Made by a program: the position numbers and the translations under genes. A stretch of 64,000 bases of DNA, taken from the NCBI RefSeq assembly GCF_007197735.1, contig NZ_CP041637.1, positions 1,426,001 through 1,490,000 on the forward strand. The letters are read 5' to 3'. The notes below the pieces were generated by a model. The model was not told the origin of the DNA. It was given only the letters and a program-made list of their open reading frames with translations, and did not search any database. This DNA is from Formosa sediminum (lineage in GTDB: Bacteria > Bacteroidota > Bacteroidia > Flavobacteriales > Flavobacteriaceae). Below are positions 839 through 8,795 of this stretch, in pieces (within the stretch, counting starts at the first letter, position 1; every line of letters begins with the position of its first letter).

Positions 839-2329
839 TTAAGCTTTAGAGGTTAATGATTTAAAAAACACGTAACCGAAACCTAAGAAGAGCATGAGGT
901 GAAATGGAAATAATCCAAAATCGCCACCTTGGTCTCCTACTATAAATGCACTGTACATTCCGAAAGCGAAATAAAGTGTAAGTAAGCCTTCGAAAATAAC
1001 ATTTACAGAGATGTTTTTCTTGATGTATTTGTTGCCTTTCCAGCTATCTTTAAGACTGCTAATATTAAATTTAGGTGTACGCACAAATTCGCTACGTTTT
1101 CCGATATGGCCTTCTAATACAGCAATAGAATTGTGTAGAGAAAAGCCCATGGCTACCGTAAAAAATGTAAAGAACATACCAATGTATTTTATGAAATTCT
1201 TGATTCCGCCGCCATATATATTCCGATACATAAACCAGTAACAAATAAAGAAAATAACACTACTTACCACAAAGAAACTCATGACGTAGAAGTATGGTTT
1301 TAGGTGTGCATATTCATTTTTAATATAAAGCATAGGAATACTTAATACAGCAACAATAAATACGTTTAAAAACATGGTGCTGTTTAATAAATGAAGTACA
1401 CCGTGAAGTTTTGTTTTACCAGAAATATTATCGGATTTTAAAACTTTCCATAACATTTTTCTGAAGTTTTCTGCACCACCTTTATTCCATCTGAATTGTT
1501 GCGAACGTGCGGCACTAATTACCACAGGAAGCTCTGCTGGTGTTTCTACATCTTCTAAATATTTAAATTTCCAGTTTTTAAGTTGTGCACGATAGCTTAA
1601 ATCTAGGTCTTCGGTAAGTGTGTCTCCTTCCCAGTTTCCTGCATCTATAATACAATCCTTACGCCAAACCCCAGCTGTACCGTTAAAGTTAATAAAGTGA
1701 CCTTTACTATTTCGTCCCACTTGTTCTAATGTAAAATGGGCATCTAGAGCAAAAGCTTGGATGCGAGTTAATAGTGAATACTCTCGATTAATATGTCCCC
1801 AGCGTGTTTGTACTACCCCGATGTTTCTATCTTTAAAATAGGGTAATGTACGTAGTAGCCAGTCTGATTCTGGTAAGAAATCGGCATCGAAAATGGCAAT
1901 AAATTCACCTTTTGCAATTTTTAAACCTTCTTTTAAGGCTCCAGCTTTAAATCCGCTACGGTCTGTTCTAGTAATATGTACGATGTCTAATCCTGTAGCT
2001 TTTAACTTTTGGATATGATTGTACGTAGATTTTACGGTTTCGTCTGTAGAATCGTCTAATACCTGAACCTCTAATTTGTGTTTAGGATAATCTATGGTAG
2101 CAATATTTTCCAGTAAGCGATCCATAACGTACATTTCGTTATATACAGGTAGCTGTATGGTAACATAGGGTATCTCGTTTTCTTTAGAGAGATCTAAAGG
2201 CGGTAAATGTGTGTCTTTCTTTTGGGCGGAAAGATAGTTTAATAATAAGTTTAATTGTGCTAAAGCATACATGAATATTAATGCTAAAGACGTTGAGTAT
2301 ACTGCTATTATTATTGTTTCTAAAATCAT
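839..2329 (-). CDS. Cellulose-synthase-like family 2 glycosyltransferase, membrane-bound
   Basis: 496-residue processive-type GT2. An N-terminal membrane segment (about 5-28) precedes the GT-A domain with the nucleotide-sugar Asp pair (D92-D93 in LDDSTDET), the metal-binding DAD at 148-150, the catalytic TED at 239-241 and QQFRW at 277-281 (the QxxRW motif). Several membrane helices follow from about 310 to 490. This order matches bacterial CslA/BcsA-like synthases that make a beta-linked polysaccharide or glycolipid at the inner membrane. The sugar and product cannot be told from sequence. It overlaps the upstream GT2 gene by 4 bp, so the two are probably translated together. No PilZ domain or BcsB-like partner is present. 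Confidence 0.85.
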   Translation of the reverse strand: MILETIIIAVYSTSLALIFMYALAQLNLLLNYLSAQKKDTHLPPLDLSKENEIPYVTIQLPVYNEMYVMDRLLENIATIDYPKHKLEVQVLDDSTDETVKSTYNHIQKLKATGLDIVHITRTDRSGFKAGALKEGLKIAKGEFIAIFDADFLPESDWLLRTLPYFKDRNIGVVQTRWGHINREYSLLTRIQAFALDAHFTLEQVGRNSKGHFINFNGTAGVWRKDCIIDAGNWEGDTLTEDLDLSYRAQLKNWKFKYLEDVETPAELPVVISAARSQQFRWNKGGAENFRKMLWKVLKSDNISGKTKLHGVLHLLNSTMFLNVFIVAVLSIPMLYIKNEYAHLKPYFYVMSFFVVSSVIFFICYWFMYRNIYGGGIKNFIKYIGMFFTFFTVAMGFSLHNSIAVLEGHIGKRSEFVRTPKFNISSLKDSWKGNKYIKKNISVNVIFEGLLTLYFAFGMYSAFIVGDQGGDFGLFPFHLMLFLGFGYVFFKSLTSKA

Positions 2330-3018
2330 TTTTTTATACTATATTTAAAAATCCAGTACAAGATTTTTATGCCTGCAAATATAGCACCTTTTATTGTACC
2401 TGAAACTTTTGAAACCCCAATTCTATTACGATATTTTACAGGAATTTCGCGATAAGAAAAATTATGCTTTAAAACTTTTAGTTGCATTTCTACGGTCCAA
2501 CCATATGTTTTGTCTAACATGTTTAATTTTAGTAATTTAGAGTATTTTATAGCACGAAAAGGGCCTAAATCTGTAAAGGTAGAATTAAAAAATAAACGCA
2601 TTAAACTGGTTGCTAACCAGTTTCCAAATTCTTGAGGAACAGTCATAGAACCAGATTCTCGAAGATTTTTTGTACGTGCGCCTACTACAAAATCAATATT
2701 TTCTTCTAGAATGGGTGAAACAAGGGTTGTTAGTTGTTCTGGATAATCACTATAATCGCCATCTATAAAAACAACGATGTCTGGTTTAATGTTTTGTTTA
2801 GAAATATATTCCATACCTTTTAAACACGCATACCCATAACCTTTATTTGTTTCTGTTAAAACGGTTGCTCCGGCTTGAACTGCATTTCTTTCTGTATGGT
2901 CAGTAGAATTGTTGCTAACAACAATAACTTCGTCTACAAGTTTTGGTATGTCATGAATAACGTGTGCAATAGAATCTGCTTCGTTATAAGCAGGTATAAT
3001 CACTTTAATTAGAGCCAT
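2326..3018 (-). CDS. Family 2 glycosyltransferase, dolichol-phosphate-sugar synthase-like
   Basis: 230-residue GT2 of the DPM1/polyprenyl-phosphate glycosyltransferase type. The N-terminus VIIPAYNEADSI and the IDGDYSD metal-binding motif (DGD at 86-88) are typical, as is the MTVPQEFGNWLATSLMRL stretch of this subfamily. There are no C-terminal membrane helices, so it is the short cytosolic form that loads a sugar onto a lipid phosphate carrier. It is the first gene of a two-gene unit with the membrane glycosyltransferase at 839-2329 (4-bp overlap), so the pair may build one surface glycan or glycolipid. A TATATTTG -7 box lies 23 bp upstream. Confidence 0.8.
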   Translation of the reverse strand: MALIKVIIPAYNEADSIAHVIHDIPKLVDEVIVVSNNSTDHTERNAVQAGATVLTETNKGYGYACLKGMEYISKQNIKPDIVVFIDGDYSDYPEQLTTLVSPILEENIDFVVGARTKNLRESGSMTVPQEFGNWLATSLMRLFFNSTFTDLGPFRAIKYSKLLKLNMLDKTYGWTVEMQLKVLKHNFSYREIPVKYRNRIGVSKVSGTIKGAIFAGIKILYWIFKYSIKK

Positions 3019-3040
3019 ATTGGGATATAAAAAGGGATTG

Positions 3041-3048
3041 CAAATATA
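3041..3048 (-). promoter_or_regulatory. -7 promoter box of the glycosyltransferase pair
   Basis: Minus-strand TATATTTG exactly fits the Bacteroidota -7 consensus and is identical to the boxes before tRNA-Phe, the HMG-CoA reductase gene and mraZ. It ends 23 bp before the ATG at 3018. No TTG was found at the -33 spacing. Confidence 0.5.
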
Positions 3049-3118
3049 CTTAGTTATTTGGATTTGTTGTATGTTTTTATAAATCTTCTTGTTTGTCGTT
3101 ATAATTTGGAGTTTAAAT

Positions 3119-3167
3119 TCAAAAAAAACCGCTTAATAAGAACATGTAGCTGTAATCTTAAAAAGCG
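3119..3167 (-). terminator. Stem-loop and T-run after the CarboxypepD_reg gene
   Basis: Minus-strand arms CGCTTTTTAAG and CTTATTAAGCG pair with an internal A/T mismatch and a 16-nt loop. They are followed by G and then a run of eight T. It lies about 75 bp after the stop of the gene ending at 3243 and before the promoter of the next unit. The stem is imperfect, so the call is moderate. Confidence 0.45.
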
Positions 3168-3242
3168 ATTTTAAACAAAAATTATTTTTTAATAACTATA
3201 CTATTGCTTAGTCTGTAAAAAGAGTGAATACTTTCAAGAAAA

Positions 3243-4781
3243 TTAATTTTTTTCTGTAATTATACTTTTAAATTCTTTTATTGCTTTGTTGGGTTCTATT
3301 ATATTATATCCTTTCCAGAATTCTGGATCGTAGGCTGGTAAATAAATAGGTTTTACGTCGGCTTTTTCTTTATAAGCATTAAACTCGGCTGCAGTGATGG
3401 TTTCATTTTCAAAGGCGACTAACTCTCGTTTGGAATAATTTTTGGCTATAAAGTTAATGTCTCCAGACAGTTCGTTTTGCTTTCTACGGCCTTTTACATG
3501 TTTGTTTTTTTCAATAATCTTAAAAGGTCTATCTATACCTGTTTTATTAGCAGTTTCTATTTCTGCATATTTTAAACTGTAGTTCCCAGTTTTGTTTTTT
3601 GCATATATAAAACTGCCTTCGCGTTGATACACATCTAGCGAAACTCCTAGAAGTTTGAATGTTTTAAGCGATTTTACGTTTTTAAAATCTACTCTAATCA
3701 CAGCAAAATCTTCTGTATTAATGTATAAAATACCTTTATAATCTTCACTACGTTTGGGTTTAAATGCAATTTTATATACATACTGATCATTAAGAAAAGA
3801 ATAATCTAAAAGTTCAAACTCGTAACGGTTTGATTTATGTATACAATTTAAACTGGCTTCTTCACTAACAAAACTGCTACGTTCCATACTATTAATTACG
3901 TATTTTCTGTATTTAAGAAAGTTTTTTTTCTTGTCTTCTTCTTTTTTCTTTTCAGCTTCTAAAAAGGCTTCAGATTTTTTATTGGACTCGTCTTGAAAGA
4001 ATGAAGAATCTACATCTTCTTTTGTACCAAACCATCCGGATTTTATTTTAAAATAAGAATCGCGTTTTACATGTTTTTTTACAATTGCATTTAGTTTTTT
4101 TTCATAGGCTTCAAAAGTCATTTCATTATTTTTATCGTAAAGTTCTGAGGCTTTAAGAATATTTAATTTAATAACTGTGTCTTTTTTAGCTTCTGATTTG
4201 TTTTTATAAAATTCGCCTAAAATCTCTGTGTAATGGTATGAGTTTAGAGGGATGTCGCTTAATATGCTATCTGTGAGCTCTTGATTAAATTCTGGTATAG
4301 TAGACGTTTTAATTTTAACCGATTTTCTAAGAATAGTAGATCCATAAGTTTCTCTGAAAAAAAGTTTGCTTTTTTGGAAGGTGCCACCATAATTTTTATC
4401 TAAGTTGTCTTCTACCTTCTCGATAATTTCATCGACAGTATAATTTTTATTGAAGAGCATAACTTCATTAAGCTCTATAGATTTAGGTTTTAAAACCACT
4501 ATACTGTCTTGAAATGTTTTGGCAGCTATATGTTTAGACTCGTAACCTAAACAACTAAATATTAACGAGTCTTGTTCAGAAATTGGTGTGTTTATTTGTA
4601 ATTGAAATTGTCCAATATCATTACTTATTACTCCGGAGGTGTTGTTAAAAGAGATGGTTGCAAACGAGATGGGTTCTAAATTTGTAGAATCTAAAACTTT
4701 GGCATGAATTTGAGTTTGCGCTCGTGTAGAGAATACACTAAAAGTTAAACAAATAAAAAGTAAAATGTAAAATTGTTTCAT
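3243..4781 (-). CDS. Secreted CarboxypepD_reg-like domain protein
   Basis: 512 residues with a signal peptide (about 1-21, ending TRAQ) and a CarboxypepD_reg-like beta-sandwich at about 24-110 (KVLDSTNLEPISFATISF through DSLIFSCLGYESK). This domain is the one found at the N-terminus of SusC/TonB-dependent proteins. The remainder is rich in Lys and beta strands, with repeated YKI/FKP and RVDFKNVKSL-type segments and a Lys/Glu-rich central stretch. It has no TonB plug or barrel motifs of the SusC type. Such proteins in Bacteroidota are exported and probably associate with the outer membrane. The function is unknown. It stands alone, with gaps of over 120 bp on both sides. Confidence 0.65.
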   Translation of the reverse strand: MKQFYILLFICLTFSVFSTRAQTQIHAKVLDSTNLEPISFATISFNNTSGVISNDIGQFQLQINTPISEQDSLIFSCLGYESKHIAAKTFQDSIVVLKPKSIELNEVMLFNKNYTVDEIIEKVEDNLDKNYGGTFQKSKLFFRETYGSTILRKSVKIKTSTIPEFNQELTDSILSDIPLNSYHYTEILGEFYKNKSEAKKDTVIKLNILKASELYDKNNEMTFEAYEKKLNAIVKKHVKRDSYFKIKSGWFGTKEDVDSSFFQDESNKKSEAFLEAEKKKEEDKKKNFLKYRKYVINSMERSSFVSEEASLNCIHKSNRYEFELLDYSFLNDQYVYKIAFKPKRSEDYKGILYINTEDFAVIRVDFKNVKSLKTFKLLGVSLDVYQREGSFIYAKNKTGNYSLKYAEIETANKTGIDRPFKIIEKNKHVKGRRKQNELSGDINFIAKNYSKRELVAFENETITAAEFNAYKEKADVKPIYLPAYDPEFWKGYNIIEPNKAIKEFKSIITEKN

Positions 4782-4905: not shown

Positions 4906-5808
4906 TTAGCTTGTGGTTTCTTCCTTTTTTTTAGTTAGAGGATAAAAAGTTTGCGTTATAAATTGATCTGGGAACTCTTCATCTTTCTCAAATCCTAATT
5001 CAATATCTCGTCCGTTATGCGGGACATAATCTGTTTTAAATATATAATCCCAAAGGCTTAATGTAATGCCATAATTTGAACCATAAATTGAGTTTGGTGG
5101 TAATTCTTTAGCATGATGCCAAATGTGCATTTTAGGGTTATTTAGTATGTATTTAAAAGGGCCATAATCCCAACCTAGATTTGCATGATTTAAATGTCCT
5201 ATGGCAATAGTGAAAAAATGAACTAAGACCACATCTTGCACGTCGAATCCGCCAATAATAGCAATAGGAATGTATAACAACGATTTGTAAATAACAGGTT
5301 CCATCCAATGGTAGCGTAAGTGTCCAGCAAATCCCATTTCTTTAATAGAATGGTGTACTTTGTGAAAATCCCATAATAACGGGAACCGGTGTAATAGTCT
5401 GTGCGTGTTCCATTGAACAAAATCACTAACAATAAAAAAGATAAATAAACTTGCTGCTTTTGGAAGTTGATTAACTTTAAACAATTGGAGGTCATTTAAA
5501 GTTAAACCTACTACTGAAAGGATATCGTTAAACACTGTAGCAGCTGTATTTGATAGTGCAATTAGAACAATTAAATTTAAGAGAAAAAAATTAAAAAACA
5601 TATAAAAGGTGTCTAGCCAAAAATCTTTTCTAAATATAGATTGATTTTTACGCCAAGGAAATACAATTTCTAAACCCCAAACAATCAATGAAATAATAAT
5701 TAAGCCATAGAAATAATTATCCCAATGGTTAATAGAGATTAGTTCATATTTTAAGTATCTCCAATATCCAGAATATGAATCTTGAATAATATTAATGTAT
5801 TTTTCCAT
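4906..5808 (-). CDS. Sterol desaturase / fatty acid hydroxylase superfamily membrane protein
   Basis: Integral-membrane di-iron oxygenase family protein. The histidine clusters of the family are all present: HRLLH, HKVHH, a HLNHAN element and HIWHH, set between about four hydrophobic helices. Members hydroxylate or desaturate lipid chains, sterols or carotenoids. The substrate is not predictable here. A longer reading frame begins at 5823 (MLYYF), but that ATG lies inside a perfect 14-bp hairpin and its T-rich tail. The internal ATG at 5808 (MEKYINIIQDSY) is therefore the better start. The gene follows the arsenosugar-type cluster on the same strand but is separated from it by that hairpin, so shared transcription is doubtful. 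Confidence 0.8.
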   Translation of the reverse strand: MEKYINIIQDSYSGYWRYLKYELISINHWDNYFYGLIIISLIVWGLEIVFPWRKNQSIFRKDFWLDTFYMFFNFFLLNLIVLIALSNTAATVFNDILSVVGLTLNDLQLFKVNQLPKAASLFIFFIVSDFVQWNTHRLLHRFPLLWDFHKVHHSIKEMGFAGHLRYHWMEPVIYKSLLYIPIAIIGGFDVQDVVLVHFFTIAIGHLNHANLGWDYGPFKYILNNPKMHIWHHAKELPPNSIYGSNYGITLSLWDYIFKTDYVPHNGRDIELGFEKDEEFPDQFITQTFYPLTKKKEETTS

Positions 5809-5819
5809 AAAATAATAAA

Positions 5820-5855
5820 GCATCTTGTTTTATTATATGGTATAAAACAAGATGC
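5820..5855 (-). terminator. Perfect 14-bp stem-loop after the purine nucleoside phosphorylase gene
   Basis: GCATCTTGTTTTAT (5820-5833) and its exact reverse complement (5842-5855) enclose an 8-nt loop. Read on the minus strand it lies 18 bp after the PNP stop codon and is followed by TTTATTATTTT. It probably ends the arsenosugar-type operon. Confidence 0.65.
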
Positions 5856-5873: not shown

Positions 5874-6686
5874 TTAGAGCGTTTTTATAAGCTCTCTAAA
5901 TAATGTAATCATATTTGGTTCAGCCTTTTCTGCCATAGCGATAATATCTTCAATATTTACAGGTTGTAAATGATCTGGATCTCCTTTATCTGTAATTACA
6001 GACACTGCAGCTGCTTTTAAATTTAAGTGATTGGCAACTATAATTTCTGGTACTGTGCTCATACCAACGGCATCTGCTCCTAATGTTTTTAGCATTCTAT
6101 ATTCTGCACGTGTTTCTAATTGCGGCCCCAACATACTGGCATACACGCCTTCATGTAAAGTAAAGTTGTGTGCTTTAGCAATTTCTTTAAACTTTGTGTT
6201 AATAGCCTTATCGTAAGGCGCACTCATATCTGCAAAACGTTCGCCTAATTTAGATACGCCTTTAAAGGCTAGTGGCGAACCGCCTAGTAAATTTATATGG
6301 TCGTCTATTAACATTAAATCGCCTTTTGCATAATCTAAATTTACAGCTCCAGAGGCATTAGATACTAAGAGAGTGTGAATTCCTAATTGATTCATGATTC
6401 TTACTGGATATGTTATATCCTGTAGTGTGTAGCCTTCATATAAATGAAAACGGCCTTGCATAACCACAACTTTTTTACCTTCTAGTTCTCCATAAATTAA
6501 TTTTCCTTTATGAAACTCTACCGTTGCAGTTGGGAAATAGGGAATCTGATTGTAGCTTACTTCGTGAATAATAGTAATGTCATTTAATAATTTACCTAAT
6601 CCAGTACCTAAAATAATCCCGATTTCAGGTTTGTCGAAGCCTTTGTTTTGTAAATATTCTGTGGTTTCGTTAATGTACTTAATCAT
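5874..6686 (-). CDS. Purine nucleoside phosphorylase, trimeric type
   Basis: 270 residues, the usual length for trimeric PNP, which splits purine ribonucleosides with phosphate into base and ribose-1-phosphate. Visible motifs are GIILGTGLGKL (phosphate loop), GRFHLYEGY, VSNASGAVN and the signature around GPQLETRAEY with VGMSTVPE. By alignment E191 matches human Glu201, and D233 (in VITDKG) stands where human PNP has Asn243, a position linked to 6-oxo versus 6-amino purine preference. It overlaps the upstream arsenosugar glycosyltransferase gene by 8 bp and ends the cluster. This suggests a role on an adenosine-derived arsenic nucleoside, though ordinary purine salvage is also possible. Its only apparent terminator is the hairpin at 5820-5855. 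Confidence 0.88.
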   Translation of the reverse strand: MIKYINETTEYLQNKGFDKPEIGIILGTGLGKLLNDITIIHEVSYNQIPYFPTATVEFHKGKLIYGELEGKKVVVMQGRFHLYEGYTLQDITYPVRIMNQLGIHTLLVSNASGAVNLDYAKGDLMLIDDHINLLGGSPLAFKGVSKLGERFADMSAPYDKAINTKFKEIAKAHNFTLHEGVYASMLGPQLETRAEYRMLKTLGADAVGMSTVPEIIVANHLNLKAAAVSVITDKGDPDHLQPVNIEDIIAMAEKAEPNMITLFRELIKTL

Positions 6687-7356
6687 AATGTATGCTATAT
6701 TTTTTAAGTTGAGGATAATCTTTTATATCTTCAAATGTATCGATATCATTTAATTCTTCAAGCAAATAAACAGATTTGTTAGATAAATTTTCTAATGTAT
6801 TTTCTAACACTGTTGCGGTTCCCCAGTCTTTATTTTGAAACACTTCTTGATGTAATGTTTTCATGCCTAGTAAGTAATAACCGCCATCTTTTGCAGGTCC
6901 AATAACGGTGTCGTTTTCATCTAGACTATTAAAAGCATGGTTTATAATCTGAGAAGAAAGATCTAAAATATCACTTCCAATTATAACAACTTTCTGATAA
7001 TTATTTTGAAATAATTCTTTGAAGGCATTACTCATACGTTCGCCAAGATTTTCTCCCTGTTGGAGCTTTTTTCTAAAAATATTATCGTCCCAAGTGTCGT
7101 TTTTATGAATATGCTCAGAATAAAACACAAACTTATCTGCGTTTACATTTGAAGAAATTTGAGCAGTATGCTCGAGTAGTGTTTTGTAAATGTCTAACGC
7201 ATATTCGTCGCCAATGGTTTGTGCTAAACGGGTTTTGCACTTTCCTAGTTCAGGGTTTCTAGCAAAAATAATTAATGCTTTTTTAGATGTTGGAAAATGA
7301 AACGTAGCCAGAGCATCGTCGTTAGTTTCATTATCATTAGAGGTTAAAAATCCCAT
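6679..7356 (-). CDS. DUF2064 (TIGR04282-type) arsenosugar-associated glycosyltransferase
   Basis: 225 residues. The N-terminal ALIIFARNPELGKCKTRLAQ resembles the nucleotide-binding segment of GT-A/nucleotidyltransferase folds, and GSDILDL and GPAKDGGYYLLG are hallmark segments of the TIGR04282 family. The family is found beside radical SAM ArsS genes and is annotated as an arsenosugar biosynthesis glycosyltransferase. The exact reaction is inferred from context rather than proven. It lies 21 bp downstream of arsS and overlaps the PNP gene by 8 bp. The first about 25 residues are less conserved, so translation might start a little further in. Confidence 0.8.
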   Translation of the reverse strand: MGFLTSNDNETNDDALATFHFPTSKKALIIFARNPELGKCKTRLAQTIGDEYALDIYKTLLEHTAQISSNVNADKFVFYSEHIHKNDTWDDNIFRKKLQQGENLGERMSNAFKELFQNNYQKVVIIGSDILDLSSQIINHAFNSLDENDTVIGPAKDGGYYLLGMKTLHQEVFQNKDWGTATVLENTLENLSNKSVYLLEELNDIDTFEDIKDYPQLKKYSIHYD

Positions 7357-7377
7357 GTTTTGGTATTTAAGTTTATA

Positions 7378-8433
7378 TTAAGCAACGCTGCCTTGGCAAC
7401 TACTACCGGCACCAGCAGTACATCCATAGCAATGTTGTGAGGTTACAATAGTTCTGCCGTTTAGCAAATCTTCGTTGTAATTAGAGATGTGCTTTACTTT
7501 GCTGTTTACGGGCAATTCAAGCATCTGATTGAAATCGCAATCATATAAGTATCCGTCCCAGCTTATAGAGAGAGTATTGGTGCACATTACACTTTTTGCT
7601 GCTTGTGGATTATAAGCCTCAACCAGTGCGTACATATAGTCTTCGTAATTATCGGAAGCAATCAAATAATCTAAAAACCGACTTATAGGTAAATTGGTAA
7701 TAGCAAAAAGTTGATGAAAATGTATACCAAAATCTTCTAATAAAGCCGATTTAAAATCTTTTTCCATTGCAGATTGGTTTGCGGGTAAAAATGCACCCGA
7801 CGGATTGTAAACTAAATCTAGCTTTAATTTGCTATCGGGCATGCCATAGCCAATAGCGTTTAAGTCTTTTAAGGCTTGGATAGATTGATTAAAAACGCCT
7901 TTACCACGTTGTTTGTCTGTTTTACCTTGTGTCCAATGCGGCATAGAGCTAACAACATGAATATTATAGTTTTTAAAAAATTCAGGCAAATCGTGATATT
8001 TTTTATTCGCTCTTATTATGGTTAGGTTAGAGCGAACTATAAAATCTTTAATCCCTGCTTTGGAAGCTTCTTCTACAAACCACCTAAAATTAGGATTCAT
8101 TTCTGGTGCGCCACCTGTAAGATCTAATGTATGAGCGTGTGTATTTTTAATTACATCAAGACACTGTAACATGGTCTCTTTTGTCATGATTTCTTTTCGG
8201 TCTGGACCGGCATCTACGTGGCAATGTTCGCAAACTTGATTACACATATAGCCCACATTAATTTGAAGAATTTCTAATGTATTTGCTGTTAAAGGAGCAA
8301 TACCAGTGTCTTTAAGTTTGTTTTTAAATGTTGGAAGTTCTCCTGTTTTAAAAATGCCATTGGCTAAAAACTCGAGTTGCTTTTGGCTTTGTGCTAATTG
8401 ATTGTTACGCTTATGTAATGATTTTTGAGTCAT
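7378..8433 (-). CDS. arsS: Arsenosugar biosynthesis radical SAM protein ArsS
   Basis: 351-residue radical SAM enzyme. The 4Fe-4S binding CxxxCxxC motif is C64, C68, C71 (CNQVCEHC), followed by LDLTGGAPEMNP. The C-terminal DUF3641-type part carries extra cysteines and ends CYGCTAGAGSSCQGSVA, typical of ArsS. ArsS is known to join the 5'-deoxyadenosyl group of SAM to dimethylarsenite, the first committed step to arsenosugars. It sits between an AhpD-like gene (26 bp upstream) and the DUF2064 gene, in the arrangement known for this pathway. The methyltransferase ArsM that would supply dimethylarsenite is not in the window. Confidence 0.88.
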   Translation of the reverse strand: MTQKSLHKRNNQLAQSQKQLEFLANGIFKTGELPTFKNKLKDTGIAPLTANTLEILQINVGYMCNQVCEHCHVDAGPDRKEIMTKETMLQCLDVIKNTHAHTLDLTGGAPEMNPNFRWFVEEASKAGIKDFIVRSNLTIIRANKKYHDLPEFFKNYNIHVVSSMPHWTQGKTDKQRGKGVFNQSIQALKDLNAIGYGMPDSKLKLDLVYNPSGAFLPANQSAMEKDFKSALLEDFGIHFHQLFAITNLPISRFLDYLIASDNYEDYMYALVEAYNPQAAKSVMCTNTLSISWDGYLYDCDFNQMLELPVNSKVKHISNYNEDLLNGRTIVTSQHCYGCTAGAGSSCQGSVA

Positions 8434-8459
8434 GTTAATTTTAATAACTTCAGAAGAAA

Positions 8460-8795
8460 TTACATCTCTAATTTATTTACTTTATTCATCATTTGTACGC
8501 CGTGAACTAAAGCTGCGCCGCCACGAATAGCTGCGGAGACATGTAAAGCTTCCATCATTTCTTCTTTAGTAATACCGCGTTGTAAAGCATCTCCTGTATA
8601 AGCATCAATACAATAAGGACATTGTACGGTGTGAGAAACGGCTAATGCAATTAAAGATTTTTCGCGTTCAGTAAGTGCGCCTTCTTCAAAAACTTTTCCA
8701 TAATAATCAAAGAACTTTTCTCCAAGAGTCTCGTTCCATTCAGATATTTTACTAAATTTTTTTAAATCGGCAGGATCGTAATAGGTTTTTTGCAT
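8460..8795 (-). CDS. AhpD-like (carboxymuconolactone decarboxylase family) protein of the arsenosugar cluster
   Basis: 111 residues of all-helical AhpD/CMD fold with the redox pair C59-x-x-C62 (HTVQCPYCIDAY) and the family's ALHVSAAIRGGAALVHG segment. Proteins of this subgroup are routinely found next to arsS and are labelled arsenosugar biosynthesis-associated peroxidase-like. A role in thiol redox chemistry of trivalent arsenic intermediates is an inference. It is the first gene of the minus-strand operon, with arsS 26 bp downstream. An 18-bp inverted repeat lies at 8814-8831, just before the start codon. Confidence 0.82.
   Translation of the reverse strand: MQKTYYDPADLKKFSKISEWNETLGEKFFDYYGKVFEEGALTEREKSLIALAVSHTVQCPYCIDAYTGDALQRGITKEEMMEALHVSAAIRGGAALVHGVQMMNKVNKLEM

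Follow-up and report, generated by a model that had tools for sequence, protein, structure and literature searches.

By what route is the adenine of an arsenic-bearing adenosine exchanged for the aglycone of an arsenosugar? Arsenosugars are the main organic arsenic of seaweeds, and the product of the radical S-adenosylmethionine (SAM) enzyme ArsS is 5'-deoxy-5'-dimethylarsinoyl-adenosine; to our knowledge, the exchange of its adenine for the arsenosugar aglycone is not settled. The question is raised by a run of genes in a 64,000-nucleotide stretch of the Formosa sediminum genome (contig NZ_CP041637.1, positions 1,426,001 to 1,490,000; the whole stretch is called the window, and its own numbering is used), in which arsS and a TIGR04282 gene are followed by a gene for a trimeric-type purine nucleoside phosphorylase (PNP). 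One paper assigns the adenosylation of arsenic in oxo-arsenosugar synthesis to a radical SAM enzyme (PMC12159101), and another assigns the initial steps to ArsS together with ArsM (PMC8552651). A search of the open-access literature, with subscription literature not covered, returned no paper placing a nucleoside phosphorylase in arsenosugar synthesis. We find that a place for the PNP in the arsenosugar pathway of the window's family is well supported. As to its chemistry, we give an even chance to the proposal that the PNP cleaves the ArsS arsenoadenosine to arsenoribose-1-phosphate, that the TIGR04282 protein activates this product and that the PNP also clears ordinary 5'-deoxyadenosines.

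The run is an arsenosugar-type cluster. Its open reading frames (ORFs) confirm four genes on the minus strand, transcribed in the order TIGR04169, arsS, TIGR04282 and PNP and followed by a gene of the fatty-acid-hydroxylase type. The first encodes an AhpD-like, arsenosugar biosynthesis-associated peroxidase-like protein (TIGR04169; 8460..8795, 191.4 bits against a cut-off of 120), the second ArsS (7378..8433; TIGR04167, 436 bits against 300), the third a TIGR04282/DUF2064 protein with a predicted CofC-like nucleotidyltransferase fold (6679..7356; 223.9 bits against 134) and the fourth a trimeric-type PNP of a subfamily that we term type B (5874..6686; NF006054, 338.5 bits against 218). All four proteins score above their NCBIfam cut-offs, and the end of the TIGR04282 gene overlaps the start of the PNP gene by 8 bp, as the initial annotation of this DNA had described. 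Moreover, the cysteines of the CxxxCxxC motif of ArsS (C64, C68 and C71) are invariant in 10 aligned sequences. The window thus has ArsS, TIGR04282 and TIGR04169 in common with the NCBIfam arsenosugar set. It differs from that set in that a nucleoside phosphorylase is included in this family, and the window genome has neither the ArsM of NF038099 nor TIGR04283 over the cut-off. None of the NCBIfam models that match the PNP bears an arsenosugar-related name.

Co-occurrence of the phosphorylase with arsenosugar genes

We surveyed 199 genomes of the window's family, taken as the Flavobacteriaceae, at about one genome per genus. The PNP type of the window is present in 164 of them, 11 have only a weak match or another type and 24 have no trimeric PNP, with the divide between types set at E 1e-105 after the values were known; the borderline sequence of G566 (2.3e-106) shows type-B residues, and G456 and G543 were assigned by E-value alone. 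ArsS scored over its cut-off in 147 genomes and TIGR04282 in 157. Every one of the 147 ArsS-positive genomes carries both this PNP type and TIGR04282, compared with 17 of the 52 ArsS-negative genomes that carry the PNP (Fisher P = 1.9e-26, uncorrected for kinship); a good number of the negatives are small genomes. ArsS without this PNP type was found in none of the 199 genomes, while the converse, the PNP without ArsS, does occur. Furthermore, coordinates of both genes are listed for 136 genomes, and in 135 of these the PNP adjoins TIGR04282 (same strand, less than 1 kb apart), where chance would give about 0.1% per genome; these 136 belong to 154 genomes having both genes, and among the other 18, nine that were inspected have the pair and G543 does not. 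Co-occurrence and pairing both support counting the PNP among the arsenosugar genes of the family.

The distance between the PNP gene and arsS could be listed for 135 genomes. It is below 5 kb in 89 and below 15 kb in 108, so that the possibility raised in the initial annotation, that arsS neighbours mostly lack this PNP, does not hold within the family. The two genes lie far apart in 27 genomes. We read ten of these far loci (G130, G134, G304, G404, G441, G447, G466, G548, G563 and G572), and the TIGR04282-PNP pair is present at all of them, together with a rhodanese gene in nine, TIGR04283 in nine and the arsenosugar-type ArsM in seven. The PNP locus of G234, a genome of the phylum set described below, resembles these second runs, and in G524 and G566 a TIGR04282-PNP-ArsM run is found on a different contig from arsS. 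Separately, we note that G304, G441 and G466 have ArsS over the cut-off and no ArsM match at E 1e-10.

Genome contigs were also scanned with an ArsS alignment, and the best 80 loci of 592 were compared with the window, giving 81 loci. Going by their titles, the 80 are almost all from Flavobacteriaceae or similar genera, with one each from Chlorobiota and Vicingaceae. The AhpD family recurs in 78 of the 81 loci, the TIGR04282 family in 71 (some of these being weak matches to a diverged copy) and the PNP in 60, and by recurrence, with names taken from locus L094, the ArsM family is found in 47 and the TIGR04283 family in 28. The usual order is AhpD, ArsS, rhodanese-like, TIGR04282, PNP, ArsM, FA_hydroxylase, DUF547 and TIGR04283, with many variants. 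A TIGR04282-family gene lies less than 1 kb upstream of the PNP on the same strand in 59 of the 60 PNP-bearing loci, and in 29 the two overlap or abut. Loci of the Muricauda, Maribacter and Arenibacter type have no PNP nearby. In nine loci (L105, L106, L108, L111, L112, L115, L120, L124 and L156) about 8 kb separates arsS from the TIGR04282-PNP pair; the genes in this insert, as named from L105, encode a TonB-dependent receptor, a SusD-like protein and a weak match to sodium:solute symporters, accompanied by a metallophosphoesterase in most of the loci and by an additional DUF2064 copy that has diverged, the families being defined by recurrence.

The active site of the phosphorylase

The PNP was aligned with full human PNP and human methylthioadenosine (MTA) phosphorylase (MTAP), whose sequences agree at every residue with those of PDB chains. 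S33, F200, E201, N243 and H257 of human PNP correspond to T28, L190, E191, D233 and I245 of the window PNP, and to Thr, F177, S178, D220 and V233 of MTAP. The initial annotation had equated E191 with Glu201 and D233 with Asn243, and both equivalences stand. Its argument for an arsenosugar substrate was built on Asp233 (codon GAT, 5988..5990, minus strand), since the exchange of Asn243 for Asp in human PNP favours 6-aminopurines. However, among the family's cluster-type, module-type and PNP-alone sequences, each of the 96 rows readable at this position has Asp, as do 91 of 101 other rows, some of them from PNPs in which His257 is retained; these and the following counts are of rows, not genomes, and at least two genes appear in them twice (the PNP of G001 among the 101 others, and L173 and L246, which are identical, among the 84 cluster rows). 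Asp233 is therefore uninformative on clusters: it occurs in nearly all Bacteroidota PNPs examined, as the caveat in the initial annotation had anticipated, and it serves neither as a cluster marker nor as an argument for the arsenosugar role. Locus L192 (G049, 2376-4026) carries a tandem pair of diverged PNPs that differ at the 243 position, Asp being present in one and Asn in the other.

Judged from the alignment, Ile245 (codon ATT, 5952..5954, minus strand), which stands at the position of His257 in human PNP and of Val233 in human MTAP, should replace Asp233 as the clue to specificity. Ile or Val is found there in all 82 readable cluster-PNP rows from ArsS-positive genomes of the family. 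The full signature T-L-E-D-[IV] is present in 78 of 84 such cluster rows; of the remaining six, two have Ser at position 33, two have a gap there and two are cut short. The 101 other rows consist of 20 with S-F-E-D-H, 67 with T-L-E-D-[ILVM] and 14 of other kinds. Three ArsS-positive genomes (G084, G218 and G289) have an additional PNP with His257 elsewhere in the genome. According to two papers, His257 of human PNP hydrogen-bonds the 5'-OH (PMC12648331), and the pocket is lined by His257, Phe200 and Phe159, with the purine held by Glu201 and Asn243 (PMC10226123). The window PNP, with Ile245 and Asp233, does not have the human-type combination of His257 and Asn243. We infer that its Ile245 pocket, hydrophobic as in MTAP, would accommodate substrates that lack a 5'-OH, among them the ArsS product, MTA and 5'-deoxyadenosine.

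The window PNP shares three features with human MTAP: Thr at the position of Ser33, Asp at that of Asn243 and a hydrophobic residue (Ile here, Val233 in MTAP) at that of His257. The nearest solved structure is a bacterial PNP (PDB 4lna, 294 bits), presumably from Spirosoma linguale, which likewise has Asp at the 243 and Leu at the 257 position but is catalogued simply as a purine nucleoside phosphorylase. In a quick tree, which has many open forks and in which gain and loss are indistinguishable, the cluster-type PNPs of the family group together in a single clade (72 rows; Shimodaira-Hasegawa-like approximate likelihood ratio test support 98).

The TIGR04282 partner and a proposed route

An AlphaFold model of the TIGR04282 protein, built from 27 aligned sequences, has a mean predicted local distance difference test score of 89.6. 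In the list of structural neighbours, 3cgx (Z 27.3), which is a putative nucleotide-diphospho-sugar transferase, stands first. It is followed by known or probable nucleotidyltransferases in rows 2-5 (Z 16.9-19.3), including 3-phosphoglycerate guanylyltransferase (7p97, 19.3), a probable nucleotidyltransferase (2i5e, 18.9) and Rv2983 (6bwh, 16.9), which we take to be FbiD; the glycosyltransferase mannosylglycerate synthase reaches Z 13.0. A shared fold is no proof of function, and the protein, which resembles CofC/FbiD and 3-phospho-D-glycerate guanylyltransferase in fold and weakly matches the CofC model (TIGR03552, 35.6 bits against a cut-off of 105), differs from them in being 13-16% identical over the fold. 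The model nevertheless speaks for a nucleotidyltransferase rather than the 'glycosyltransferase' that the family is named for, in line with the initial annotation, which had called the DUF2064 protein nucleotidyltransferase-like. Such a fold suits a sugar-1-phosphate supplied by a phosphorylase; a substrate of the phosphoglycerate type is also possible.

We infer the substrates and products of the route, as well as a second role of the PNP, from gene order, co-occurrence, active-site residues and the predicted fold of TIGR04282. The PNP would be a 5'-deoxy-5'-substituted-adenosine phosphorylase on a PNP scaffold, converting 5'-deoxy-5'-dimethylarsinoyl-adenosine and phosphate to adenine and 5-deoxy-5-dimethylarsinoyl-ribose-1-phosphate. 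The CofC/FbiD-like TIGR04282 protein would then turn this arsenoribose-1-phosphate into a nucleotide-activated arsenoribose, and a GT2 glycosyltransferase would transfer the arsenoribose to an acceptor; in many relatives this would be TIGR04283, for which no match over the cut-off was found in the window genome. The PNP would also clear MTA and 5'-deoxyadenosine. The initial annotation had sketched the first two of these steps; that the PNP belongs to the pathway, as it proposed, is supported by the co-occurrence and the TIGR04282 pairing, and its Asp233 argument finds no support.

The rest of the window genome, a single 3.93-Mb contig, fits this route in part. It contains one trimeric PNP (E 1e-40) and, adjoining a gene that reads as DeoC, a DeoD-type PNP; a separate enzyme for ordinary purine nucleosides supports a special role of the cluster PNP. 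The only PF01048 protein besides DeoD is uridine-phosphorylase-like and below the cut-off. The initial annotation had suggested looking for arsM elsewhere in the genome, and a canonical ArsM is indeed encoded about 1.26 Mb from the cluster (367.7 bits against the NF008823 cut-off of 263), with an apparent ArsR-like gene as its neighbour, but an arsenosugar-type ArsM over the cut-off is not.

Two further observations concern the surroundings of the cluster. The gene after the PNP (4906..5823, minus strand), which the initial annotation did not mention, encodes a membrane protein of the fatty-acid-hydroxylase/sterol-desaturase type; the OlsE model matches it below the cut-off, and its homologue in L094 is a PF04116 protein. 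The family recurs in 22 of the 81 ArsS loci, the window included, and could point to a lipid as the end product. At 839-3018 the window has two GT2-type glycosyltransferase genes, both below the TIGR04283 cut-off; other members of their families are found close to arsS, so that the two families are represented in 13 and 15 loci.

Exceptions and competing explanations

Several results weigh against the proposed route, or against its being the whole role of the PNP. The window genome lacks the complete arsenosugar gene set, since its best match to the arsenosugar-type ArsM (NF038099) reaches 100 bits against a cut-off of 400 and the best of its 28 matches to TIGR04283 reaches 69 bits against 182. 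The PNP scores 103.2 bits on the MTAP model (TIGR01694; cut-off 274.85) and differs from human MTAP in retaining Glu201, where MTAP has Ser178, and Tyr88, and in having Leu for Phe200. The pocket type T-L-E-D-I/V/L also occurs in ArsS-negative genomes outside the family. Within the family, 12 of the 20 listed PNP-less genomes are smaller than 2 Mb, so that the co-occurrence may partly reflect genome reduction; several ArsS-positive genomes of 1.6-1.7 Mb nonetheless retain the PNP. The pairing has exceptions as well: PNP and TIGR04282 are 1.66 kb apart in G525, the PNP of G218 is on the opposite strand and not next to TIGR04282, G543 has TIGR04282 and TIGR04283 with no PNP beside them, and L163 is a PNP locus without TIGR04282.

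This PNP type also occurs without ArsS and TIGR04282 in 10 of the 199 genomes (two of them, G408 and G439, being 84 and 82% complete). In the eight of these loci that were read (all but those of G423 and G439) the PNP is solitary. One is from the window's own genus: in G407 (L208, 4077-4886) the PNP stands without AhpD, ArsS, TIGR04282 or the hydroxylase gene, yet it is syntenic with that of the window, with an antiporter on one side and a 500-residue gene and a glycosyltransferase on the other. The PNP-alone sequences fall inside the family's clade, and on the quick tree the states 'alone' and 'in cluster' switch at least six times. These genomes rule out a PNP dedicated to the arsenosugar pathway. 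Because the PNP persists without the arsenic genes, it probably has a second, arsenic-independent role, and clearance of ordinary 5'-deoxyadenosines would explain why it is kept when those genes are gone.

The same evidence lends itself to an explanation by salvage alone, which is the strongest competitor but one that we hold to be rather unlikely: the PNP would be a general MTA/5'-deoxyadenosine phosphorylase that removes the radical SAM by-product or recycles adenine and leaves the arsenic compound untouched, and TIGR04282 would use another substrate. 5'-deoxyadenosine is a by-product of many radical SAM enzymes, as stated in PMC8102628. The PNP-alone genomes and their repeated switches agree with salvage, as does the window genome, in which no MTA/S-adenosylhomocysteine nucleosidase (MTN) came up at E 1e-20 and none of the remaining PF01048 proteins qualifies as MTAP. 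MTN scores over the cut-off in 13 of the 199 genomes, namely in 8 of the 11 with another PNP type or a weak match as opposed to 5 of the 164 with this type (Fisher P = 2.9e-4, uncorrected for kinship) and in none of the 24 without a trimeric PNP. This anticorrelation is modest evidence: the first two groups behave as a salvage role predicts, but the PNP-less group does not, so that the need for such an enzyme is not strict, and the MTN-bearing genomes may be close kin. Salvage also leaves the adjacency to TIGR04282 in 135 of 136 genomes unexplained, including loci with no arsS nearby.

Six ArsS-negative genomes (G182, G411, G429, G495, G517 and G565) tell against a purely arsenical function in another way, since they carry the TIGR04282-PNP pair together with TIGR04283. 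No arsenosugar-type ArsM scores over the cut-off in any of the six (G495 has a 90-bit match). Their loci are L178, L214, L215, L216, L217 and L218, and in some of these genomes rhodanese and DUF547 genes are present too. It is conceivable, though we consider it a long way from probable, that PNP and TIGR04282 form a general unit turning 5'-modified adenosines into nucleotide-activated 5-deoxy-5-X-ribofuranoses, with arsenosugars as one use. If so, these six genomes would make non-arsenical 5-deoxyribosides. We know of no other route of this kind to ribosyl donors from radical SAM or methylthio nucleosides.

Outside the family, no link between PNP and arsS was seen in the loci and plasmids examined. 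In a phylum set of 395 genomes, ArsS is over the cut-off in 156. A PNP was detected at E 1e-40 in 114 of the 115 ArsS-positive genomes searched for it (the exception being G371) and in 33 of 45 genomes without ArsS over the cut-off. No relative of PNP, MTAP or DeoD is found near arsS in 20 loci of other Bacteroidota families (in one of which, L286, ArsS itself was missed by the ORF filter), nor is there a PNP among the annotated arsS neighbours on two plasmids (Hymenobacter and Pseudanabaena); both results count against the route. Conversely, no TIGR04282 or ArsS lies beside the 60 PNPs of L034-L093 within flanks of about 1.5 kb, a few of these PNPs being from the window's family.

The remaining explanations fare worse. 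That the protein is an ordinary inosine/guanosine PNP carried along in the cluster is improbable: it passes NF006054, narrowly misses the inosine/guanosine PNP I model (TIGR01700, 289.9 bits against 293.35) and retains Glu201 and Tyr88, but His257 and Phe200 are replaced, the genome already has DeoD and the linkage is far above chance. It is still less probable that the module imports and degrades algal arsenosugars or arsenolipids. The PNP reaction is reversible, and three families recur between arsS and TIGR04282-PNP in 9 of the 81 loci, transport-type in L105, along with the phosphoesterase. Many of the relatives' genera are marine, which also counts in favour of degradation. ArsM and ArsS, however, are synthetic enzymes, TIGR04283 is a glycosyltransferase, and the window, like most loci, lacks the transport genes. 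Least probable of all is arsenolysis, in which arsenate would replace phosphate in the PNP and would thereby be reduced to the arsenite that ArsM uses: in-vitro reduction of arsenate by mammalian PNP is described in PMC12608789, and ArsM directly follows the PNP in 37 of the 81 loci, but the constant partner is TIGR04282 rather than ArsM or a reductase, the window cluster has no ArsM and the change in the 5'-pocket would be needless.

Phosphorolysis of the ArsS product is, in our view, the best reading. Deletion phenotypes will need careful reading given the probable arsenic-independent role of the PNP, but the TIGR04282-PNP pair is present in most sampled genera of one family, whose culturable strains are suitable for deletion combined with arsenic speciation. 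One gene pair thus offers a testable answer to how adenine is exchanged in the making of arsenosugars: phosphorolysis, then nucleotidyl activation.

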